Assembly: GCA_018064425.1 (NCBI GenBank)
Contig: JAGHVF010000015.1
Span: 1-45,030, forward strand
Length of the DNA stretch: 45,030 nt
Direction: 5' to 3'
Source of the DNA: Candidatus Colinaster equi
GTDB lineage: Bacteria > Bacillota > Clostridia > Lachnospirales > Lachnospiraceae
Under the pieces are notes generated by a model. It was not told the origin of the DNA. It worked only from the letters and a program-made list of their open reading frames with translations, and made no database searches. How positions within the stretch are numbered: the stretch's first letter is position 1; each line of letters begins with the position of its first letter. The translations under genes were made by a program, and so were the position numbers. Shown here piece after piece: positions 1 through 6,830 of the stretch.

Positions 1-2
1 GC

Positions 3-77
3 ACCACATCCGGCAATGATATAACCATGCCCATATTTGGGCTGAGTAATCCTGAGATAATAAAAGTAGCTGTGTAA
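3..77 (+). CDS. C-terminal end of an unidentified protein (partial)
   Basis: The frame is open from the left window edge to a TAA at 75-77 and ends in the peptide PIFGLSNPEIIKVAV. The rest of the gene lies outside the window, so neither family nor start can be judged. The stop codon is followed at once by a small hairpin (77-88), which fits a real gene end. It could also be another truncated fragment like those further right. Too short to name. Confidence 0.35.
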   Translation, partial: TTSGNDITMPIFGLSNPEIIKVAV

Positions 78-170
78 CCCGAAAGGGTAGCAGTAAGGGT
101 GTCATGGACGCACCCCGGGATCTACGCGGCGAAGCCGCGCGCACCTGATGCTCGGTAATTCAATTACCGA
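77..170. other. Cluster of four small hairpins, unusually GC-rich
   Basis: Four potential hairpins stand almost back to back: ACCC-GAAA-GGGT (77-88, a GNRA-type loop), GGGTG/CACCC (97-115), CGCGGC-GAA-GCCGCG (125-139) and CGGTAATT-C-AATTACCG (153-169, perfect 8-bp stem). The stretch 100-150 is much richer in G+C than its surroundings. None has a U-run, so they are not ordinary terminators. They could be a structured RNA, the end of a mobile element or a recombination site; no known RNA family was recognised. Confidence 0.4.
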
Positions 171-456
171 TGTAGTTCACAAAGTATAACAGCAGAAAAT
201 GTAGATATTACTGAGGCGCTGGCAGCAAAAGAGTATTTCTCATACTATCATGAAGGGGTAAATAGGCGCATAGATGACTCAATCAAGGGATGGCTATATA
301 AGGATAGGTCCAGAAGTATTTATGCGTGTAGTACAGAATAGAAAGGCTTCAGAGAAACATTACCGGAGAATTGATGAAGTCAAACCTAAAACAGGTGTTG
401 TAAGATTATTAAGGCCTATATATAGTATGATTGGCTGTATGAAATACAAGATGTAA
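159..456 (+). pseudogene. Degenerate coding remnant, possibly transposase-like
   Basis: Two overlapping reading frames look like pieces of one decayed gene. Frame A is open from 159 to the TAG at 339-341 and contains AAKEYFSYYHEGVNRRIDD. Frame B (ATG at 274, stop 454-456, 60 codons) contains GYIRIGPEVFMRV and a basic tail. The YYHxxxxRI pattern followed after a frame change by a GPEVF-like stretch faintly recalls the C-terminal end of IS3-type DDE integrases, but this is weak. Frame B alone could be a 60-codon orphan gene. It stops two bases before hairpin repeat copy 1. Confidence 0.3.
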
Positions 457-458
457 TA

Positions 459-494
459 CCTGAATGACTCACCAAAAATGGTGCATCGTTCAAC
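459..494 (+). repeat. Hairpin repeat, copy 1 of 5
   Basis: 36-bp unit with left arm TGAATGACTCACCA, loop AAAA and right arm TGGTGCATCGTTCA, then AC. The arms form an imperfect 14-bp stem. One change from the most common version (C to T in the left arm). It begins two bases after a stop codon and runs directly into another reading frame on its right. Confidence 0.8.
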
Positions 495-617
495 AGAATT
501 GCGAGAAACCAATCAGAAAGATTTAGAAAAATGGCAAAAGGTGGAGATGATACGATACATCCATATATTAACAGCGTAATAGATAAATTTTTCGCAGCGA
601 AAGGGATAAAACGATGA
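468..617 (+). pseudogene. Gene 3' end joined to hairpin repeat copy 1
   Basis: A frame open from inside the repeat continues for about 49 codons to a TGA at 615-617. It contains FNRIARNQSERFRKMAKG and ends IDKFFAAKGIKR. The first ATG is at 531 and would give 28 residues. The stop overlaps the ATG of the next gene (ATGA at 614-617), the arrangement of translationally coupled genes. The likeliest reading is the surviving 3' end of a longer gene whose 5' part was replaced by the repeat. Family not recognised. Confidence 0.3.
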
Positions 618-811
618 CATGGGATGAAATGGACGACGTTATATTTGACGGAACAAAAAATGAAGTAAATAACCTAAAGTGCCCAGATTGCAATACAAAA
701 GTATATATACAATACACAGCAAAATGGGGCGCATTGACTTACGGGTGTAAAAAATGCGGCCGTGTAGTGAAACTGTGTAAAGCGCCAGAACCGAATTATA
801 TTAGCGAATAA
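614..811 (+). CDS. Small zinc-ribbon protein
   Basis: 65 residues with two CxxC knuckles, CPDC near residue 23 and CKKC near residue 45, spaced as in a single treble-clef zinc ribbon. There is no membrane segment and no further domain, so the likely property is zinc binding; the role is unknown. The start is an ATG overlapping the stop of the preceding fragment (ATGA), which suggests coupled translation; no good Shine-Dalgarno sequence is seen. It sits between hairpin repeats 1 and 2 and so counts as the cargo of one module. Orphan-like protein. Confidence 0.6.
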   Translation: MTWDEMDDVIFDGTKNEVNNLKCPDCNTKVYIQYTAKWGALTYGCKKCGRVVKLCKAPEPNYISE

Positions 812-820
812 GGAGAGAAC

Positions 821-868
821 ATGGACAACTTCAAAGCGGTATATAAATACTATCAACAAAGAGTTTGA
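821..868 (+). CDS. Very short ORF, possible truncated gene start
   Basis: ATG at 821 is preceded by a strong AGGAGAG ribosome site (811-817) and encodes only 15 residues, MDNFKAVYKYYQQRV. It stops 22 bases before hairpin repeat copy 2. The strong ribosome site on so short a frame suggests the 5' end of a gene whose remainder was lost where the repeat inserted or recombined. It could also be a genuine micro-peptide. Confidence 0.3.
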   Translation: MDNFKAVYKYYQQRV

Positions 869-890
869 CACGCTCTCGCAATCTGTTATA

Positions 891-926
891 CTTGAATGAC
901 CCACCCAAAATGGTGCATTGTTCAAC
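891..926 (+). repeat. Hairpin repeat, copy 2 of 5
   Basis: Same orientation as copy 1. It differs from the common form at three places (second base, one loop base, one right-arm base), with the CACC/GGTG stem core kept. Similarity to copy 3 extends about 27 bp further left, beginning TTTGACAC in both, so these two copies share a unit of about 60 bp. Confidence 0.75.
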
Positions 927-998
927 AGACTTGGTCAGGTTATAAAGCAGGAAGCTGCAAGCTGTGGATGACTTCGCCTTATTCCGGTAGACTCTATT

Positions 999-1265
999 AT
1001 GTTTGTATATATAGAAGTAGAGTTTGAGGATGGAACTCGTAAGTTTTATTATGAAAATGAACGTGAATTTGAACATTTTGAAAGTAATTTTAGTAGTAAA
1101 AGATTTACCTCATATCATGAGTTTTTTACCACTGAAGAGTTAGGGATAGAAAAACGTGGAAGTTTGGAACTTAAATATTATGTTCGTCGTAGTAGCGATA
1201 GCTATGAGATAGTGTCACTTACAGATAAAAAACAGGAATTATCAGATCTCCTAATTCTTTCATGA
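999..1265 (+). CDS. Hypothetical acidic small protein
   Basis: 88 residues, hydrophilic, rich in Glu, Phe and Tyr (motifs EVEFEDGTRKFYYENERE and ELKYYVRRSSDSYE). No signal peptide, membrane segment or known motif. The alternating charged and aromatic pattern suggests a small beta-rich fold of the sort found in immunity or orphan cassette proteins, but this is only an impression. No clear ribosome site precedes the ATG. It lies between hairpin repeats 2 and 3 and ends in a good terminator at 1271-1314, which supports it being a real transcribed gene. Confidence 0.45.
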   Translation: MFVYIEVEFEDGTRKFYYENEREFEHFESNFSSKRFTSYHEFFTTEELGIEKRGSLELKYYVRRSSDSYEIVSLTDKKQELSDLLILS

Positions 1266-1270
1266 AATAA

Positions 1271-1326
1271 GCCAGATTTTAAACGTATAAATATATAAGC
1301 GTCTAAAGTCTGGCTATAATTATTTT
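1271..1326. terminator. Bidirectional terminator between convergent genes
   Basis: Arms GCCAGATTTTAAACG (1271-1285) and CGTCTAAAGTCTGGC (1300-1314) pair over nearly 15 bp, followed on the plus strand by an A/T-rich run with TTTTTT. It separates the 88-residue gene from the convergent sulfhydrylase fragment. Confidence 0.75.
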
Positions 1327-2295
1327 TTATATTGAAGCAAGTGCCTGTTTTAAGTCATTGATTATATCATCTATATTTTCTATACCAACAGACAGTCTTA
1401 TTAAATCTGGTGAAATATCAGATTCGATAAGCTGCGAATCTGATAACTGTCTGTGTGTGTGGCTTGCAGGGTGTAACAGGCATGATTTTGAATCTGCTAC
1501 ATGTGTTACAATCGAAATTAATTTAAGCTTATCCATAAAGGTTACAGATGCGTCTCGTCCACCTTTGATAGCAAAAGCAAGTACTCCGCATGAACCCTTT
1601 GGAAGATATTTCTTTGCCAATTCATGATTTACATCATCCTCTAAATCTGAATAATGAACCCATGCAACTTTATCCTGCTCTTTCAAAAACTTTGCTACTT
1701 CCAAGGCGTTCTCACAATGCTTTTCCATACGTAGATGAAGAGTTTCAAGTCCGGCATTTATGTAAAAAGCATTTTGTGGAGATTGAATAGAACCGAAATC
1801 TCTCATTAGCTGGGCGGTTGCTTTTGTTATATATGCTCCTTTACCAAATTGTTTTGTATATGTTATTCCATGGTATGATTCGTCTGGCGTGGTAAGTCCA
1901 GGGAACTTATCTGCATATTTATCCCAATCAAAGTTACCACTGTCAACTATACAACCTCCAACTGAAATTCCATGACCATCTATATATTTAGTAGTAGAGT
2001 GAGTGACTATATCGGCACCCCATTCAAATGGTCTACAGTTAATTGGTGTAGCAAATGTATTATCAATTATAAGTGGAACACCATGCTTGTGAGCAAGTAA
2101 TGAGAACTTTTCAATGTCCAGAACCTGTACTGTTGGATTAGTAATTGTTTCACCAAATATTGCTTTTGTATTTGGTTTAATATACTTCTCAAGTTCTTCC
2201 AGTGGAAGTGTTTGATCAACAAAAGTACATTCTATTCCCATTTTTTTCATTGTTACTCCAAATAAATTGTAGGTTCCGCCATATATTGAAGACGA
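1327..2295 (-). pseudogene. O-acetylhomoserine sulfhydrylase, 5'-truncated
   Basis: The minus-strand frame encodes the C-terminal three quarters of a Cys/Met-metabolism PLP enzyme (O-acetylhomoserine aminocarboxypropyltransferase, MetY type), which makes homocysteine from O-acetylhomoserine and sulfide. Recognisable parts: SSSIYGGTYNLFGVTMKKMG, the GETITNPTVQVLDI stretch, IIDNTFATP, the PLP-lysine segment HSTTKYIDGHG, and a normal C-terminus. Homologous sequence runs upstream past the ATG at 2250 to about 2293, then stops abruptly; roughly the first 100 residues of a usual 425-residue protein are missing and unrelated sequence follows. Loss of the N-terminal part, which contributes to the subunit interface and PLP phosphate binding, makes it almost certainly inactive. 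Confidence 0.75.
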
Positions 2296-2451
2296 TGTAA
2301 TGAAACTGGATGGCAGGAAAGTGAATACTGGTGGGACTTCGAAAACATATGGTGGACACTAAACGAGCAGACCGGAGAGTTTGAGTTTAAAGAGGACACA
2401 CCGGAAAGAGTAAAAAAGAGCTTCGAGCTTTGGAAAAATAACGGAAAATAA
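2293..2451 (+). pseudogene. C-terminal fragment of an unidentified gene
   Basis: Plus-strand frame open from the sulfhydrylase breakpoint to a TAA at 2449-2451, about 52 codons. It has protein-like composition, with ESEYWWDFENIWWTLNEQ and a charged end, VKKSFELWKNNGK. It has no start codon of its own near the left end, so it reads as the 3' end of a gene joined to the broken sulfhydrylase. It stops 27 bp before hairpin repeat copy 3. Family unknown. Confidence 0.4.
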
Positions 2452-2478
2452 AAATTTGACACCTTCTGCGAGTATGTT

Positions 2479-2514
2479 CCTGAATGACCCACCAAAAATG
2501 GTGCATCGTTCAAC
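2479..2514 (+). repeat. Hairpin repeat, copy 3 of 5
   Basis: Matches the common form: left arm TGAATGACCCACCA, loop AAAA, right arm TGGTGCATCGTTCA. Similarity with copy 2 extends leftward to about 2455. Confidence 0.8.
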
Positions 2515-2618
2515 GAAGAAATGGCTTGGACTAGTAGAAACCCGGACGCGAAAAGATCAAATTAACTTGTTTTACTGAGTGAAGCATTGCTTGAGGTTTT
2601 CACAATGGAGGAAAAACC

Positions 2619-2788
2619 ATGAAGGATATGGAAAACAAGGATTTTATGGCTAACCAGATTAACGATAGATTGTGGAACGTAGTATAGGTGCAGATCTTTT
2701 TGGGTGGATAAACGGGTTTGAAGTTATATATTGTTCAGATACCAAAACACTTCCGAAAGAAATTAAGGAACCTGATTGGATATTGTGA
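2619..2788 (+). pseudogene. Small gene, apparently frameshifted
   Basis: ATG at 2619 lies after GGAGGAAAAACC (a good ribosome site) and reads MKDMENKDFMANQINDRLW before a TAG at 2685-2687. From about 2665 another frame continues with GADLFGWINGFEVIYCSD and ends KEIKEPDWIL at a TGA (2786-2788). Together they could be one 55-60 residue protein broken by a one-base change, or two unrelated pieces. No family recognised. It directly precedes the desulfurase fusion gene. Confidence 0.3.
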
Positions 2789-2808
2789 AAGAACGGACCG
2801 GTGATTTA

Positions 2809-4293
2809 ATGAATACTTCAATTATTAGGATTACTCCTGAAAATCATGATGAATATATCAACAAAACAGACAGGCCGATTGTCATTTTGTATTTTAGCGA
2901 ATTCTGTGTGCATTGCAAAAGAGCAATCAGAAGCCTGTTCGTAATGTCCCAAAGTATGGATGGCATACTGAATTTCGGTATGTGTCAGGTGGATGGACTG
3001 GACGATTTCAGATTGGAAAAGGGGATAATTAACCTCCCTTCTATATGTGTTTGGCAGAATGGGGAAAAACTCGAATTCCAAGAGGGATTTGATGAAATAT
3101 ATGGAATCGGTAATGCCTTGAAAGCAACTCTTGTTCCGAATCCGAATCTTCGTTATGTTTATGCAGACAATGCGGCAACAACAAAAATCTCTAAAACAGC
3201 CTTAGAGGCTTTCGTCAATTGCTCGAATGAGTATTTCGGAAACCCGTCAGGAAATTATGAGACAGGTAAGAAAGCAAAAAGCGTAATCCGAAATGCAAAG
3301 AGAACTATTGCAAGCTGCCTTGGCCTTAAGAACGGAAAAGTAATCTTCACCTCCGGCGGAACGGAAGCAGACAATATGGCTATTTGCTCGGCACTTGATT
3401 TTGGTAGGGAAACGGGCAGAAAACACGTCATTGTTTCCTCTATTGAACATCATGCTGTTTTAAATGCAATAGAAAAGTATGCTTCGGATGATTTCCGTAT
3501 CACTGTTTTGCCGGTTTCTTCGGGCGGATATGTAAATGCTTCGGATGTAAGAGAGAGTATATGTGAAGACACTTGTCTTGTAAGTGTGATGCTTGCGAAT
3601 AATGAGGTTGGAACAATTCAACCGATTAAAACAATTGGGGCGTTATGCAAAAAGAACGATATCCTTTTTCATGTGGATGCAGTGCAAGCGGCAGGACACA
3701 TTCCAGTCGCTTTTTCGGAATGTAATATAGATTATTTGGCTATATCAGCCCATAAATTCAATGGTCCCAAAGGGGTAGGGGCGTTGCTTGTTAATGCAGG
3801 AAAACCAATATCGCGAATTATTGCAGGCGGACATCAGGAATATGGATTTCGAGCCGGGACCGAGAATGTTCCGGGGATTGGGTCGATGGCTGCCGCTTTA
3901 CATGATTCCTGTAAGGGAATGAAAGAGAATGCGGCGCGAATAAGGCAGCTAAAAGAATTACTTGTAGAAGGGCTGTGTACGATTCCCGATGTAAGAATCA
4001 ATAACACATCGCAAAACGTTTTGCCGGGAATACTAAGTGTGTCAATTAAAGGAGTAAATGCAAAGGCACTTTCGTATGTATTAGATGAAGCAGAAGGGGT
4101 AACAGTGTCAACCGGCGCTGCTTGTACCAGTATGGAAAGTAATTTGAGCCATGTTTTACTTGCCATGAAAATGAAGGAAGACAGAATTACTTCCACGGTT
4201 CGCATCTCCTTGGGTACGAACAATGATGAGGAAGATATTCAATATTTGATTAGCGCGTTTGAGAGATCAATCAGGTATTTAAGAAAAAAATAA
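2809..4293 (+). CDS. Thioredoxin-cysteine desulfurase fusion
   Basis: About 494 residues. The first 110 form a thioredoxin-like domain with a redox CVHC motif (residues 33-36) and a following IINLPSICVW segment, where thioredoxins carry their cis-proline loop. The rest (from YVYADNAATT) is a NifS/IscS-type PLP cysteine desulfurase: GGTEADN, SIEHHAV, HVDAVQAAGH, the PLP lysine in SAHKFNGPKG, RAGTEN, and the persulfide cysteine in TGAACTS near residue 439. Expected reaction: removal of sulfur from cysteine as a protein persulfide; the thioredoxin part could reduce or pass on that sulfur. ATG 2809 gives a normal thioredoxin start; a TTG at 2776 with an AAGGA site would add 11 residues. Two Cys-rich leader peptides follow in the same direction, suggesting a role in their modification. 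Confidence 0.85.
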   Translation: MNTSIIRITPENHDEYINKTDRPIVILYFSEFCVHCKRAIRSLFVMSQSMDGILNFGMCQVDGLDDFRLEKGIINLPSICVWQNGEKLEFQEGFDEIYGIGNALKATLVPNPNLRYVYADNAATTKISKTALEAFVNCSNEYFGNPSGNYETGKKAKSVIRNAKRTIASCLGLKNGKVIFTSGGTEADNMAICSALDFGRETGRKHVIVSSIEHHAVLNAIEKYASDDFRITVLPVSSGGYVNASDVRESICEDTCLVSVMLANNEVGTIQPIKTIGALCKKNDILFHVDAVQAAGHIPVAFSECNIDYLAISAHKFNGPKGVGALLVNAGKPISRIIAGGHQEYGFRAGTENVPGIGSMAAALHDSCKGMKENAARIRQLKELLVEGLCTIPDVRINNTSQNVLPGILSVSIKGVNAKALSYVLDEAEGVTVSTGAACTSMESNLSHVLLAMKMKEDRITSTVRISLGTNNDEEDIQYLISAFERSIRYLRKK

Positions 4294-4333
4294 ATTGGGG
4301 CTTTGAGTAGCCATGTGCTATGATTGCTTCGTA

Positions 4334-4339
4334 TATAAT
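4334..4339 (+). promoter_or_regulatory. Possible promoter -10 box for the peptide genes
   Basis: TATAAT in the 103-bp gap before the first peptide gene. No convincing -35 box at 16-18 bp. It may allow the peptides to be transcribed independently of the desulfurase gene. Confidence 0.3.
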
Positions 4340-4396
4340 TGTAGACACAGTAATACAAGGCGGATTCTTAGAAAGCGATGAAGGAAGGGTAATGAG

Positions 4397-4603
4397 ATGA
4401 AAAAGAGCGAGAAATATACGATGGATGAAATCAAAGCTTTATCAGAGCTTAGCGAATCAGAACTGGATAATATTGTGGGCGGTACGGATACTGAAGAAGG
4501 GAAAGACGCGGATGATTCTTCAGCAGGATTATGTCCGGTAAGGAAATTCTGTGTGGAACACATGGGTCGTGCGCACAGAATATGCAATATGGTTGACTGC
4601 TAG
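4397..4603 (+). CDS. Double-glycine-leader Cys-rich peptide precursor 1
   Basis: 68 residues. The leader contains ALSELSESELDNIVGG, a classic bacteriocin-type signal with GG at residues 28-29. The predicted core of 39 residues has four cysteines (46, 52, 63, 68) and the pattern KFCVEHMGRAHRIC. Such leaders are normally recognised by maturation enzymes and removed by C39-peptidase ABC exporters; none is in the window. The start is an ATG after GGAAGGGTAATGAG. The gene is a tandem relative of the next one: leaders are nearly identical at DNA level, cores are diverged, as in ribosomally made, modified peptides. The neighbouring desulfurase fusion is the only candidate tailoring enzyme seen. Confidence 0.75.
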   Translation: MKKSEKYTMDEIKALSELSESELDNIVGGTDTEEGKDADDSSAGLCPVRKFCVEHMGRAHRICNMVDC

Positions 4604-4649
4604 GTGAATGAAAAACAAACTTAATAAAAAAAGAGTATGGGGCTATGAG

Positions 4650-4844
4650 ATGAAAAAGAACGAGACTTATACGATGGATGAAATCAATGCTTTATCAGAG
4701 CTTAGCGATTCAGAATTGGATAATATTGTGGGCGGTACGGATACTGAAGATGATGAGGATTCGTGTGTGGGATGTAGTGCTGCAAAGAAATTATGTATTA
4801 AGCATTTGGGATCAGGCAGCAGAGTTTGCGCTGGGATGAGTTAG
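4650..4844 (+). CDS. Double-glycine-leader Cys-rich peptide precursor 2
   Basis: 64 residues, starting at the ATG at 4650 because the leader then aligns residue for residue with precursor 1; an in-frame ATG at 4608 would add 14 residues and break the match. GG is at residues 28-29. The 35-residue core has cysteines at 39, 42, 49 and 60 and the pattern KLCIKHLGSGSRVC, sharing C-[IV]-x-H-[LM]-G-x3-R-[IV]-C with precursor 1. The sequence before the start (GGGGCTATGAG) also resembles that of precursor 1, so the whole unit was duplicated. The TAG is 6 bp before truncated hairpin repeat copy 4. Confidence 0.75.
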   Translation: MKKNETYTMDEINALSELSDSELDNIVGGTDTEDDEDSCVGCSAAKKLCIKHLGSGSRVCAGMS

Positions 4845-4849
4845 GCAAA

Positions 4850-4868
4850 CCTGAATGACCCACCAAAA
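4850..4868 (+). repeat. Hairpin repeat, copy 4 of 5 (truncated)
   Basis: Only the left arm and loop remain (CCTGAATGACCCACCAAAA); at 4869 the sequence switches to coding sequence of an epimerase fragment. The right arm is missing, so this copy was cut at the hairpin tip. Confidence 0.7.
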
Positions 4869-4869
4869 G

Positions 4870-5007
4870 GCGTTCCAGATTACCTCGAACGAGACATTGA
4901 CATGGAATCAGATATATCAATGTATTGCGGATGCTTTAAATGTAGAATTGAAGGCAGTACATGTATCATCTGAGTTGTTAGCGCAAATAAGAGTAAAGGA
5001 TAAATAA
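4870..5007 (+). pseudogene. C-terminal fragment of an NAD-dependent epimerase/dehydratase
   Basis: The frame from the repeat breakpoint to the TAA at 5005-5007 reads AFQITSNETLTWNQIYQCIA followed by DALNVELKAVHVSSELLA. This is the well-known C-terminal part of short-chain NAD-dependent epimerases (the ITSDExLTWNQIY region). The Rossmann N-terminal part and catalytic YxxxK are absent, so it is a dead fragment. It is joined without a gap to truncated repeat copy 4, which dates the breakpoint to a recombination at the hairpin loop. Confidence 0.6.
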
Positions 5008-5012
5008 TTAAT

Positions 5013-5486
5013 ATGAATGAAAAAAAATTGGAGTATATGAAAATGGCCGTTGAGCAGGCACAAGAAGGAATTCATAATGGACATGGCGGTCCCTTTGGAA
5101 GCATCATTGTTAAAGATGGCAAGATAATTGGTCGTGGTCATAATATGGTACTTAAGAATACGGACTCTACAGCTCACGGTGAAGTTGTGGCAATTAGAAA
5201 TGCTGAACAGGAGATAAATTCCTATGATTTAACTGGCGCTGAAATATATACAACAGGGGAGCCTTGTCCTATGTGTCTTGCTGCATGTATGTGGGCCAAT
5301 ATTTCAAAGGTTTATTATGGCTGTACTATTGATGATAATGAGAAAATTGGGTTTAGAGATGCAAAGTTTGATCATTTATTAGGCGGTCGAACTAAAATGT
5401 CAGACTATCTTGAGCAGATTGGTCATGAAATGTGTTTAGAATTATTTGATGAATACAATGATATTACAGATCGAATAATATACTAA
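5013..5486 (+). CDS. Nucleoside/guanine deaminase
   Basis: 157 residues, the usual length of small bacterial guanine deaminases (GuaD type). Zinc ligands of the CDA fold are clear: H and the catalytic glutamate in TAHGEVVAIR, and the two cysteines in EPCPMCLAACMW; GGPFGSIIVKDG is the family N-terminal motif. Expected reaction: hydrolytic deamination of guanine to xanthine (or a related base) in the cytosol. The motif is HGE rather than the commoner HAE, which leaves substrate choice open. It is a complete gene sitting between repeat copies 4 and 5, after the epimerase scrap; AAAGGAT upstream is a modest ribosome site. Confidence 0.8.
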   Translation: MNEKKLEYMKMAVEQAQEGIHNGHGGPFGSIIVKDGKIIGRGHNMVLKNTDSTAHGEVVAIRNAEQEINSYDLTGAEIYTTGEPCPMCLAACMWANISKVYYGCTIDDNEKIGFRDAKFDHLLGGRTKMSDYLEQIGHEMCLELFDEYNDITDRIIY

Positions 5487-5526
5487 TCTCTTGGTGGATA
5501 AATTATTCCCCATAAGAAATAGTTAA

Positions 5527-5562
5527 CCCGAATGACCCACCAAAAATGGTGCATCGTTCAAC
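5527..5562 (+). repeat. Hairpin repeat, copy 5 of 5
   Basis: One base from the common form (CCCGAATG instead of CCTGAATG). Last copy in the window; to its right starts the conserved DUF4130 gene region, so it appears to mark the edge of the patchwork. Confidence 0.8.
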
Positions 5563-5575
5563 CGAAAAACTCATA

Positions 5576-5639
5576 CTTACACTACATCGCGAACCCTGCC
5601 GGTCGTGTAAATACTCCAAAACTGCAATCTTACACTACA
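5576..5639. repeat. Two 11-bp direct repeats downstream of copy 5
   Basis: CTTACACTACA occurs at 5576-5586 and again at 5629-5639, 53 bp apart, in the 130-bp gap between repeat copy 5 and the DUF4130 gene. No gene or terminator was recognised in this gap. Function unknown. Confidence 0.4.
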
Positions 5640-5694
5640 CCACACGCAACGATACGTGATGGTTTGCATAATGTCACGCCACTCTGAATCAACC

Positions 5695-6450
5695 TCATTT
5701 GAACTCCACCATATGCTTGCGTTTCCATTTTGGTAGCAGCGTGCGTTGGCAGCGATAGTTTTCACGTTCCTTGATGGCGATTGTATCGAAAAATGTCTGC
5801 CAAAGGTCGGTGTATTCATCATTTTCGTGCTCGGTCTCAAGCAGCATTTGGTATTCGTCATCGTTTAATATGCGCAGATAGTAATCCTCATCGCGAGGAT
5901 GTACGATAGCTTCGTGATGTACATCATCAATAATCATCCAATATTCGGAGGGCATTCGATCGCTAAAGTGCATACCGAGAGTGACTGCAATTCGACTTTT
6001 AGGTTCGAAGTGAGCAACATATACTGACTTTCTTATTTCGTGAAATCTCAAAAACTCTATAAAGGAATGAGCTTCATTCTTAATACGTCTGCTTATTTCA
6101 AAGAAACGCGCAACAGGTGCATATTGTGTCATCTCAAGAGCACACGGACCGTATGTGAATCCGAGTAAAAGCATTCGGTAGATTATATCAAGTCTGTCAG
6201 GCTCATATCCAAAAGAAACATATACAAGCTCGTTGTAGAAAGCGGGTGAAATCTTGAGATTAATAGAATCCATTACTTTTTCGGCTTTTGATGAGTCTGC
6301 ATCTATGTGAATATATTCACTGAATAATTCATATTGATTGATAGGCTCCAGTTCAAGACGGATATTATTGTGACCTCTGTTACTCGACCACGCTTCATAT
6401 ATGCATGTAAGCATTGACTCCCAATCGGGAGCACAGGAATAAATATACAT
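5695..6450 (-). CDS. DUF4130 (TIGR03915-type) putative DNA metabolism protein
   Basis: 251 residues from the ATG at 6450, which has a GAGGT ribosome site and matches the family's usual length of about 250; a longer frame to 6669 would read through the promoter. Family features: YSCAPDWESMLTCIYEAW at the N-terminus, GPCALEMT..PVARFFEISRRI in the middle, and a DUF4130 core with FIEFLRFHEI, YVAHFEPKSRIA, HFSDRMPSEYWMIIDD, ending LPKWKRKHMVEF. Members are usually paired with a radical-SAM protein (TIGR03916) and thought to act in DNA repair or modification; the partner is not in the window. Transcription starts from a promoter with LexA-like boxes, so DNA damage probably induces it. Confidence 0.85.
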   Translation of the reverse strand: MYIYSCAPDWESMLTCIYEAWSSNRGHNNIRLELEPINQYELFSEYIHIDADSSKAEKVMDSINLKISPAFYNELVYVSFGYEPDRLDIIYRMLLLGFTYGPCALEMTQYAPVARFFEISRRIKNEAHSFIEFLRFHEIRKSVYVAHFEPKSRIAVTLGMHFSDRMPSEYWMIIDDVHHEAIVHPRDEDYYLRILNDDEYQMLLETEHENDEYTDLWQTFFDTIAIKERENYRCQRTLLPKWKRKHMVEFK

Positions 6451-6500
6451 AAATACCTCTCTATGATGTGACACCGAGATTGAAATATTAACAGCAATTT

Positions 6501-6574
6501 CGCACGTTTGTTCGCCTCCGATATCATTATACAAACGTTTGTTCAGAAATGCAATAAAATCGAACATACATTCG
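6501..6574 (-). promoter_or_regulatory. SOS-type promoter with three LexA-like boxes
   Basis: On the minus strand, TTGCAT (6549-6554) and TATAAT (6526-6531) are 17 bp apart. GAACAAACGTTT (6533-6544), an exact GAAC-N4-GTTT clostridial LexA box, fills the spacer. A second box, CGAACAAACGTGCG, lies just after the start site (6501-6514), and a third, CGAACATACATTCG in plus orientation, lies above the -35 (6561-6574); each departs from CGAAC-N4-GTTCG at one position. Box centres are 31 and 29 bp apart, about three helical turns, so repressors would sit on one DNA face. It drives the DUF4130 gene and could also affect the divergent gene at 6660. Confidence 0.75.
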
Positions 6575-6659
6575 TGGAAAAGTGCACGTAGTGTTAGACA
6601 CCATGGACAGTCATATGTTAATATTACTTGTAGCATACGTATTACCAAAGGAGAAAGAT

Positions 6660-6830
6660 ATGGAGACATGGTATTATGAAGTAGTTTCGATTGACGGAGA
6701 TTATGCCAATCTTAAGAGAACAGATATAGAGACAGATGATCTTAAGCTTGTGGCAAGGGCGTTGCTCCCACCGGAGATTTTCGAGGGCTGCAGACTGAAG
6801 TATGAGTTTATGACATATACAATGGAATAG
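6660..6830 (+). CDS. Small conserved-looking protein, DUF3006-like
   Basis: 56 residues from the ATG at 6660, chosen for its AAAGGAGAAAG ribosome site; an upstream frame to 6582 adds implausible residues. Pattern: WYYEVVSIDGDYANLKR, then ARALLPPEIFEGCRLKYEF. The arrangement of a GDYAxL turn followed by LP..EG resembles the DUF3006 type of small beta-barrel proteins, but the match is by eye only. No membrane segment. It is transcribed away from the SOS promoter region and ends in a clear terminator, so it is probably monocistronic. Function unknown. Confidence 0.6.
   Translation: METWYYEVVSIDGDYANLKRTDIETDDLKLVARALLPPEIFEGCRLKYEFMTYTME

Follow-up and report, generated by a model that had tools for sequence, protein, structure and literature searches.

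A possible gene-collecting array of CRISPR origin around a thioredoxin–cysteine desulfurase gene and two double-glycine peptide genes in Candidatus Colinaster equi

In Candidatus Colinaster equi (Lachnospiraceae; assembly GCA_018064425.1), a gene for a thioredoxin–cysteine desulfurase fusion is followed by two genes for cysteine-rich peptides with double-glycine (GG) leaders. This module lies at positions 2809 to 4844 of the stretch analysed here, positions 1 to 45,030 of contig JAGHVF010000015.1 (hereafter the window, 45,030 nucleotides). Why do a sulfur-mobilizing enzyme and two leader peptides stand side by side? The original prediction answered that the enzyme may serve the peptides, in a dedicated system for ribosomally synthesized and post-translationally modified peptides (RiPPs). 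Our analysis points to another origin of the neighbourhood: the module would be one unit of a gene array that is derived from a CRISPR (clustered regularly interspaced short palindromic repeats) adaptation module and gathers gene-sized DNA as an integron does, a reading to which we give a probability of about 55%. It is built on 36-bp repeats running in one direction, cas genes beside part of them, a leader, gene-sized unrelated units, cut genes and spread between genera. The array context is a stronger finding than the pairing with the peptides. Genomes, contigs and loci are named by our own handles (G, C and L numbers) where they have to be told apart.

The repeat array and its cas genes

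What surrounds the module? A 33-base repeat occurs in the window at 462, 894, 2482 and 5530, always in the same direction, and twice more on contig C71 of the same genome; for its 30-base core, shuffling gives zero expected occurrences. Aligned, the copies extend to 36 bp and divide the beginning of the window into units, as follows.

183–296, plus strand: type II-like cas1 fragment (tblastn with the Cas1 of genome G376, 58% over 38 aa, E 1e-8)
286–414, plus strand: cas2 fragment within the open reading frame (ORF) 274–456 (tblastn with the Cas2 of genome G306, 79% over 43 aa, E 4e-19)
405–458, plus strand: leader-like stretch ahead of the first repeat (405–461 is 98% identical to the pre-repeat stretch on contig C71)
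459–494, plus strand: 36-bp repeat, copy 1 (all whole copies by repeat search and alignment)
495–890, plus strand: unit 1, repeat-bounded, with a small zinc-ribbon-like ORF at 614–811 (zinc-ribbon matches all below cut-off)
891–926, plus strand: 36-bp repeat, copy 2
927–2478, strand not assigned: unit 2, a composite of ORF 999–1265, a metY-type gene and a tail (Pfam; blastn and tblastx to loci L153 and L154 of the same genome)
2479–2514, plus strand: 36-bp repeat, copy 3, bordering the module on the left
2515–4849, plus strand: unit 3, the module itself, 2335 bp between copy 3 and the half repeat
4850–4868, plus strand: left half of the repeat, closing the module on the right (found by a scripted half-repeat search)
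4869–5526, plus strand: unit 4, with a deaminase gene at 5013–5486 (Pfam dCMP_cyt_deam_1, 90.5 bits)
5527–5562, plus strand: 36-bp repeat, last copy found in the window
5695–6669, minus strand: DUF4130 gene past the last repeat, cargo or flank (Pfam DUF4130, 151.9 bits)

Unit 3 ends 5 bases past the stop codon of the second peptide gene. In unit 2, the metY-type gene lies on the minus strand from 1327 to about 2300 (Cys_Met_Meta_PP, 310 bits) and lacks its N-terminal part through a join inside the unit; the tail (2300–2477) is 95% identical to another contig of the host. This tail excepted, units 1–5 of the window have at most 75% DNA identity, or no match, to half of the host genome, which suggests that they are foreign DNA. 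At its start the array has the apparent remains of a cas1–cas2 locus; taken alone, the window's cas2 fragment matched no Pfam family, and a search of positions 1–6000 against Rfam yielded nothing useful, with one match far under the gathering score. Ahead of these fragments, 147 nt (33–179) are 98% identical to the first bases of contig C24 of the same genome, a repeated element at contig ends.

The repeat is not confined to this host. A search with the 25-base core, allowing 2 mismatches at most, detected it in 11 of 348 genomes of the family, counting the host, and the reversed pattern gave 0 in every row of the search; among 61 relatives, one other genome, of a different genus, has it. Altogether 39 copies from 15 loci, one of them the copy in G322, align over 36 bp. 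Within a genome the copies for the most part resemble each other, groups of genomes have a few variants in common, and the host has more than one. Their flanks are unrelated except for the leaders and, in four loci (L076, L201, L204, L205), a trailer after the last copy that is 95–99% identical over 62–75 bases. Two forms of the leader occur, ending in AGATGTAATA (the window, L072, L197, L202 twice, L207) or in CTAAATATAGTG (L201, L205, L210, L211, L212). The intervals between repeats (n = 24 in 9 loci) measure 249–4099 bp with a median of 1052, counting one of 1085 bp in L197 that is truncated cas1, cas2 and leader rather than cargo, and the window's value of 3012 bp, which disregards the half repeat; spacers of about 30 bp account for 0 of the 24. 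Outside the family, a 36-bp form was absent from Escherichia coli genomes, a 36-bp and a leader-repeat form were absent from the phage collection, and viral contigs had no exact match to the 33-base or the 25-base form. The 23-base core occurs once each in two contigs classed as viral (L215 8371–8406, L216 221–256); units may thus hold kilobases of phage DNA, or arrays may have been mistaken for viruses.

The tie to CRISPR comes from the genes ahead of the repeats, since in several genera the repeat stands directly behind cas2 and a leader. In G376 the array is preceded by genes for a helix-turn-helix regulator, Cas1 and Cas2. This Cas1 is full length and scores 240.7 bits against the type II cas1 model (cut-off 120); the Cas2 frame, at 67 aa, is short (26.3 bits, cut-off 24.5). 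The Cas1 of G306 is truncated (166 bits) and its Cas2 reaches 46.9 bits (cut-off 24.5). By tblastn, cas2 homologs, some of them partial, are present in 8 of the 17 repeat-bearing loci (the window, L072, L197, L201, L205, L207, L210, L211), and cas1 homologs in four (the window, L197, L201, L210), the other 13 giving no match. Besides G306, Cas1 is truncated on a Campylobacter coli plasmid, and in the window it is a 38-aa fragment. No cas9 was noticed in the ORF lists of the repeat loci, for which no profile search aimed at cas9 was made.

Named plasmids carry the same arrangement. In Lachnospira eligens, complete plasmids of ATCC 27750 and FDAARGOS_1570 have an annotated cas2, a leader and the repeat; that of ATCC 27750 also has a poorer second copy at a distance of about 0.7 kb. 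On plasmid p13786 of C. coli (NZ_OQ553946.1, L210; human faeces), annotated cas1 and cas2 stand ahead of the repeats, and behind the truncated cas1, cas2 and leader two identical 36-bp copies (L210 991–2520) flank a predicted aph(2'')-Ii together with a GNAT gene; the plasmid also has predicted tet(O) and aph(3')-IIIa genes, both beyond this repeat-bounded unit. The C. coli leader is identical to that of G376 in 60 of 60 bases and the truncated Cas1 in 175 of 175 residues, and because of this identity the locus has probably moved recently. The L. eligens and C. coli records weigh against an artefact of draft assembly.

The contents of the units also bear on how they were gathered. Several genes are cut at a repeat: a nitronate monooxygenase gene (NMO, profile 210–328 of 331, L076), an amino-acid kinase gene (AA_kinase, profile 1–94 of 234, L201) and accA (ACCA, profile 214–310 of 310, L207). 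Units with whole genes occur too, such as chemotaxis receptors with an MCP signalling domain in two genera (L201 7928–9742, L203 7657–9618). L207 also holds a fragment of a phage integrase gene (26.4 bits, cut-off 27.1), whose cut falls within the unit and not at the repeat. The last base at the 3' end of a unit (position −1, n = 30) is A in 16, G in 7, T in 7 and C in 0 cases; one of the 30, L207 3239, is in fact where a leader ends, and the bias is a weak hint of a preferred unit end.

Weighing the array as a gene collector

How does such an array compare with known systems? With the type II CRISPR adaptation module it shares a Cas1 recognized by the type II model, Cas2, a leader, 36-bp repeats in one direction and a trailer in four loci; it differs in its long intervals, with no ordinary spacer in 24. 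We class it as a variant of that module, set apart because short spacers were looked for and none was found; it would be a new kind of gene capture if the integrase proves active on whole genes. It resembles integrons in that near-identical repeats separate units of gene size that are unrelated to each other; on one plasmid, these include a predicted resistance gene. Casposons are mobile elements in which a Cas1-type integrase moves kilobase DNA, the same combination that is proposed for the array; in contrast to them, no terminal inverted repeats were noticed in the array's end statistics, and a whole 36-bp repeat flanks each unit. In listings of open-licence papers, and in sections of PMC5294841, we found no description of gene-sized CRISPR units, of Lachnospiraceae cassettes, or of cas1 and cas2 beside Campylobacter resistance genes.

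In the mechanism that we favour, a type II-like Cas1–Cas2 integrase, working without Cas9, would insert kilobase DNA at the leader, and the repeat would be copied at each insertion, so that cassettes would build up as in an integron. The activity of Cas1–Cas2 on long DNA is what we infer here, together with any benefit to the host. Unit 3 would have delivered the fusion gene and the two peptide genes from a donor. To a fuller version of this account we give even odds: an effector-less CRISPR adaptation module turned into a gene collector, a counterpart of the integron, in gut-type Clostridia, which reached a Campylobacter plasmid with a resistance gene and holds the thioredoxin–desulfurase/two-peptide module as one cassette.

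Several observations weigh against the array being such a collector. Nine of the 17 loci gave no cas2 homolog, including every one in G370, G264, G170, G294 and G025, where neither cas1 nor cas2 was seen (several of these stretches end with the contig). The host contig carries cas1 and cas2 as fragments only, and the one locus seen with a full-length Cas1, in G376, is the one with the 67-aa Cas2 frame. Neither the composite unit 2 nor the half copy at 4850 is what simple insertion by Cas1–Cas2 predicts. Unit ends show a weak sequence preference, none of the units was traced to a donor, and homologous recombination could have spread or shuffled the copies. Several copies sit at contig ends, and some assemblies may be rearranged. 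Finally, one of the 11 genomes, G322, has the repeat solely as a spacer of another array. There, on contig 10 (L206 near 6967), a 35-nt spacer is made up of the repeat and four trailer-like bases, in an array whose own repeat is GTTTCAATCCACGCCCCTCTTGCGAGGGGCGAC; this suggests that such arrays were met there as foreign DNA.

Could other processes have produced the same layout? The likeness to integrons can be taken literally, with a tyrosine recombinase acting at the 36-bp site and the cas genes as bystanders. Cassette-sized units in a single orientation would agree with this, as would the repeat's folding as a hairpin in single-stranded DNA (z −3.9) and the nine loci in which no cas2 homolog was found. 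We nevertheless demoted this explanation and regard it as quite improbable, in that cas1 and cas2 were found beside the repeats, to which they are tied behind cas2 and leader in several genera, some units are cut inside genes, and no IntI-type integrase exceeded its cut-off: the best match to TIGR02249 in the host genome (84% complete) has 74.3 bits against a cut-off of 265, and all 14 control genomes give similar weak matches. A no more probable explanation is that ordinary CRISPR arrays decayed and were split by insertions and rearrangements. The frequent truncation of the cas genes speaks for it, as do the half repeat and the composite unit in the window. On the other hand, no interval (n = 24) is near 66 bp, within a genome the copies largely resemble one another, the 13 examined of the 14 copies in G306 are gene-spaced or alone on a contig, and on the C. 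coli plasmid two perfect copies enclose a complete gene pair.

The fusion enzyme and the two peptides

What, then, does the unit encode? Its three genes are these.

2809–4293, plus strand: thioredoxin–cysteine desulfurase fusion, 494 aa (ORF list, Pfam, NCBIfam, structure alignments)
4397–4603, plus strand: GG-leader peptide 1, 68 aa; core C-x5-C-x2-H-x7-C
4650–4844, plus strand: GG-leader peptide 2, 64 aa; core C-x6-C-x2-H-x7-C

The start of the fusion is taken as ATG 2809, the listed open frame beginning upstream at TTG 2776. Its earlier description as a CVHC thioredoxin joined to a complete NifS-like enzyme is borne out. Pfam places Thioredoxin at residues 5–96 (36.5 bits, cut-off 23.5) and Aminotran_5 at residues 117–480 (268.9 bits). 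The thioredoxin half retains CVHC and the LPS cis-proline region, and in alignments with solved structures the other half matches class I desulfurases and has intact EHH, SAHK and Cys-loop motifs (EHH, SAHKF and STGAACTS in the query); the pyridoxal phosphate lysine and the catalytic cysteine (SAHK, STGAACTS) are conserved relative to both solved desulfurases and family members. The top NCBIfam model for this class I half is NifS (388 bits), and the fusion is below the cut-off of all 25 models listed of the 41 matched; against SspA of PADLOC it scores 410 bits. The desulfurase half is 43–47% identical to 13 NifS-like enzymes of the same family, in an alignment that misplaced the thioredoxin rows and serves the desulfurase half. 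The fusion thus shares the catalytic motifs of class I cysteine desulfurases (NifS/IscS/DndA/SspA) and differs from them in its extra N-terminal thioredoxin domain.

Going by the chemistry of the two families, the desulfurase domain most likely makes a cysteine persulfide, and the fusion's own thioredoxin domain would reduce it or accept the sulfur; the two domains probably work as one chain.

The peptides, too, are as first described: two cysteine-rich precursors with near-identical leaders and diverged cores. A 111-nt block spanning start and leader is 93% identical between their genes (4387–4497 versus 4640–4750), and the cores have little in common beyond the motif C-[VI]-x-H-[ML]-G-x3-R-[IV]-C. 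For peptide 2 the list gives ATG 4608 as the start (78 aa); we prefer ATG 4650, which agrees with the start of peptide 1 in the copied block, and the queries used for this peptide (4641–4841) contain 3 additional residues ahead of the Met. Both leaders score narrowly above the cut-off of the Pfam model of type-A lantibiotics (22.1 and 23.4 bits, cut-off 21.7). No LanC-like cyclase (PF05147) was matched in the host genome (84% complete), and the lanthipeptide reading was dropped on this ground.

How might the peptides leave the cell? Both leaders have I at −4, L at −7 and L at −12 before GG, and a C39 protease of Lachnospiraceae is described as requiring hydrophobic residues at these positions (PMC6363468). 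The module was said to lack an exporter, which is true of the module itself; but the host genome (2.33 Mb, 83.7% complete) encodes a single C39 peptidase domain on another contig (C58:37792, 125.6 bits), and this protein is an ABC exporter (NHLM_micro_ABC1, 891.7 bits, cut-off 853.3) whose adjoining partner gene scores 664.5 bits for NHLM_micro_ABC2, under the cut-off of 709.4. The peptides would probably be cut after GG and exported by this NHLP/C39 system. The likeness to NHLP/Nif11 and other GG-leader export lies in the GG leader with its hydrophobic positions and in the NHLP-type exporter of the host; the difference is that the window's leaders are short and of the type-A lantibiotic model, and that the exporter does not adjoin the peptide genes. 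A scan of 1.24 Mb of the host genome for GG leaders gave 11 hits, including peptide 1; peptide 2 was missed, as the scan demanded a ribosome-binding site. By eye, five others are plausible orphan precursors (L094 10681, L119 242, L103 1841 and 2187, L096 13624), two of them with zinc-ribbon-like cores. Judged by such sequences, orphan GG-leader peptides appear to be ordinary in this genome.

Does the pairing recur elsewhere? Among 145 related genomes, the thioredoxin part used as query found matches in 39, including the window's, and the fusion in the window alone. The other matches are frames of 102–149 aa like free thioredoxins, save one of 423 aa in G032 (L038 490–1758), which by eye looks like a thioredoxin–thioredoxin reductase fusion and was rejected as a relative. 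With the whole fusion as query, 250 of 397 family genomes gave a match at E 1e-80, and among the matches listed all but the window begin at residue 100 or later, in the desulfurase; in 391 class genomes the window alone passes E 1e-109, a strict threshold that would miss distant fusions. A scan of the named genome collection gave 19 loci, with the thioredoxin part covered in 0, and viral contigs gave no match. Among plasmids and phages, 461 and 58 records matched the whole fusion, with 80% query coverage in 6 and 2, some of these outside the matches listed; with residues 1–200, none of 250 plasmid records and 2 of 38 phage records reached such coverage. Two matches in the phage collection were rejected: H73, where a normal desulfurase carries a spurious extension (H74, a sister record, agrees with it in score and in the position of the match), and the partial match H81, which is a plain thioredoxin. 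The peptides were found in the window only among 245 relatives, and no relatives were found in plasmids or viral contigs. In the 397 family genomes, 2 matched, the window and G031; the weak leader match of the latter (24.2 bits) was set aside as, by eye, a Nif11-type leader with a zinc-ribbon-like core. On contig 6 of G031 (L077, L068), tandem Nif11-type leaders with short Cys-rich cores lie, by eye, near a radical SAM-like gene.

Conserved co-occurrence of fusion and GG-leader peptides is therefore unsupported, with no second instance among the 145 relatives, the matches listed for the 397 family genomes or, at the strict threshold, the 391 class genomes. This cannot count as a refutation of the sulfur-RiPP idea, because no other fusion was found at all. 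That idea holds that the fusion supplies sulfur to the two peptides, as persulfide, trisulfide or thioamide, before export. The genes are adjacent on one strand with gaps of 103 and 46 nt, no terminator-like site was found on the gene strand between 2400 and 5000, the enzyme's motifs are intact, one leader has been copied while the cores diverged, and a C39 exporter is at hand. The lack of a second fusion or pair in the relatives, in the family and class genomes and in the phage and plasmid collections tells against it, as do the two phage-collection loci examined, which are a free thioredoxin and a free desulfurase, and literature listings in which no desulfurase–RiPP pair appeared. The argument that the desulfurase must modify the peptides since the module holds no other modification enzyme fails, because the unit is a repeat-bounded piece of DNA: absent partners prove nothing in such a fragment, and a missing exporter, immunity gene or second enzyme says little about the peptide product. 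On balance, the intact fusion, the leaders fitting the C39 rule and the exporter leave the proposal weakly supported; it is possible that the fusion acts on the peptides, and a dedicated system seems unlikely to us. We would more readily entertain, still tentatively, that the two products are ordinary bacteriocin-like peptides of class II with disulfide bonds (or secreted peptides that bind metal), and that the fusion is an unrelated enzyme of H2S or Fe–S metabolism on the same fragment. The host's other orphan GG-leader peptides are in line with this, as are leader models that score near or under their cut-offs and the neighbours of the nearest desulfurases, which by eye include an Rrf2/IscR-like gene in 4 of 5 loci and MnmA-like and NifU-like genes in one each. 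On the other hand, the close packing of the three genes points to a single transcript, and no immunity gene was seen.

What a CRISPR-derived gene collector would mean

If the array is a gene collector of CRISPR origin, neighbourhoods inside such arrays may be due to chance, and they should not be read as complete biosynthetic clusters; this would hold for the enzyme and peptides considered here. It also raises a testable question, namely whether a Cas1–Cas2 integrase can insert kilobase DNA at the leader–repeat site. Should this be true, there would be a second route of gene capture alongside integrons, with a predicted resistance gene already in one unit, and CRISPR integrases would also build stores of usable genes, beyond recording short tags.

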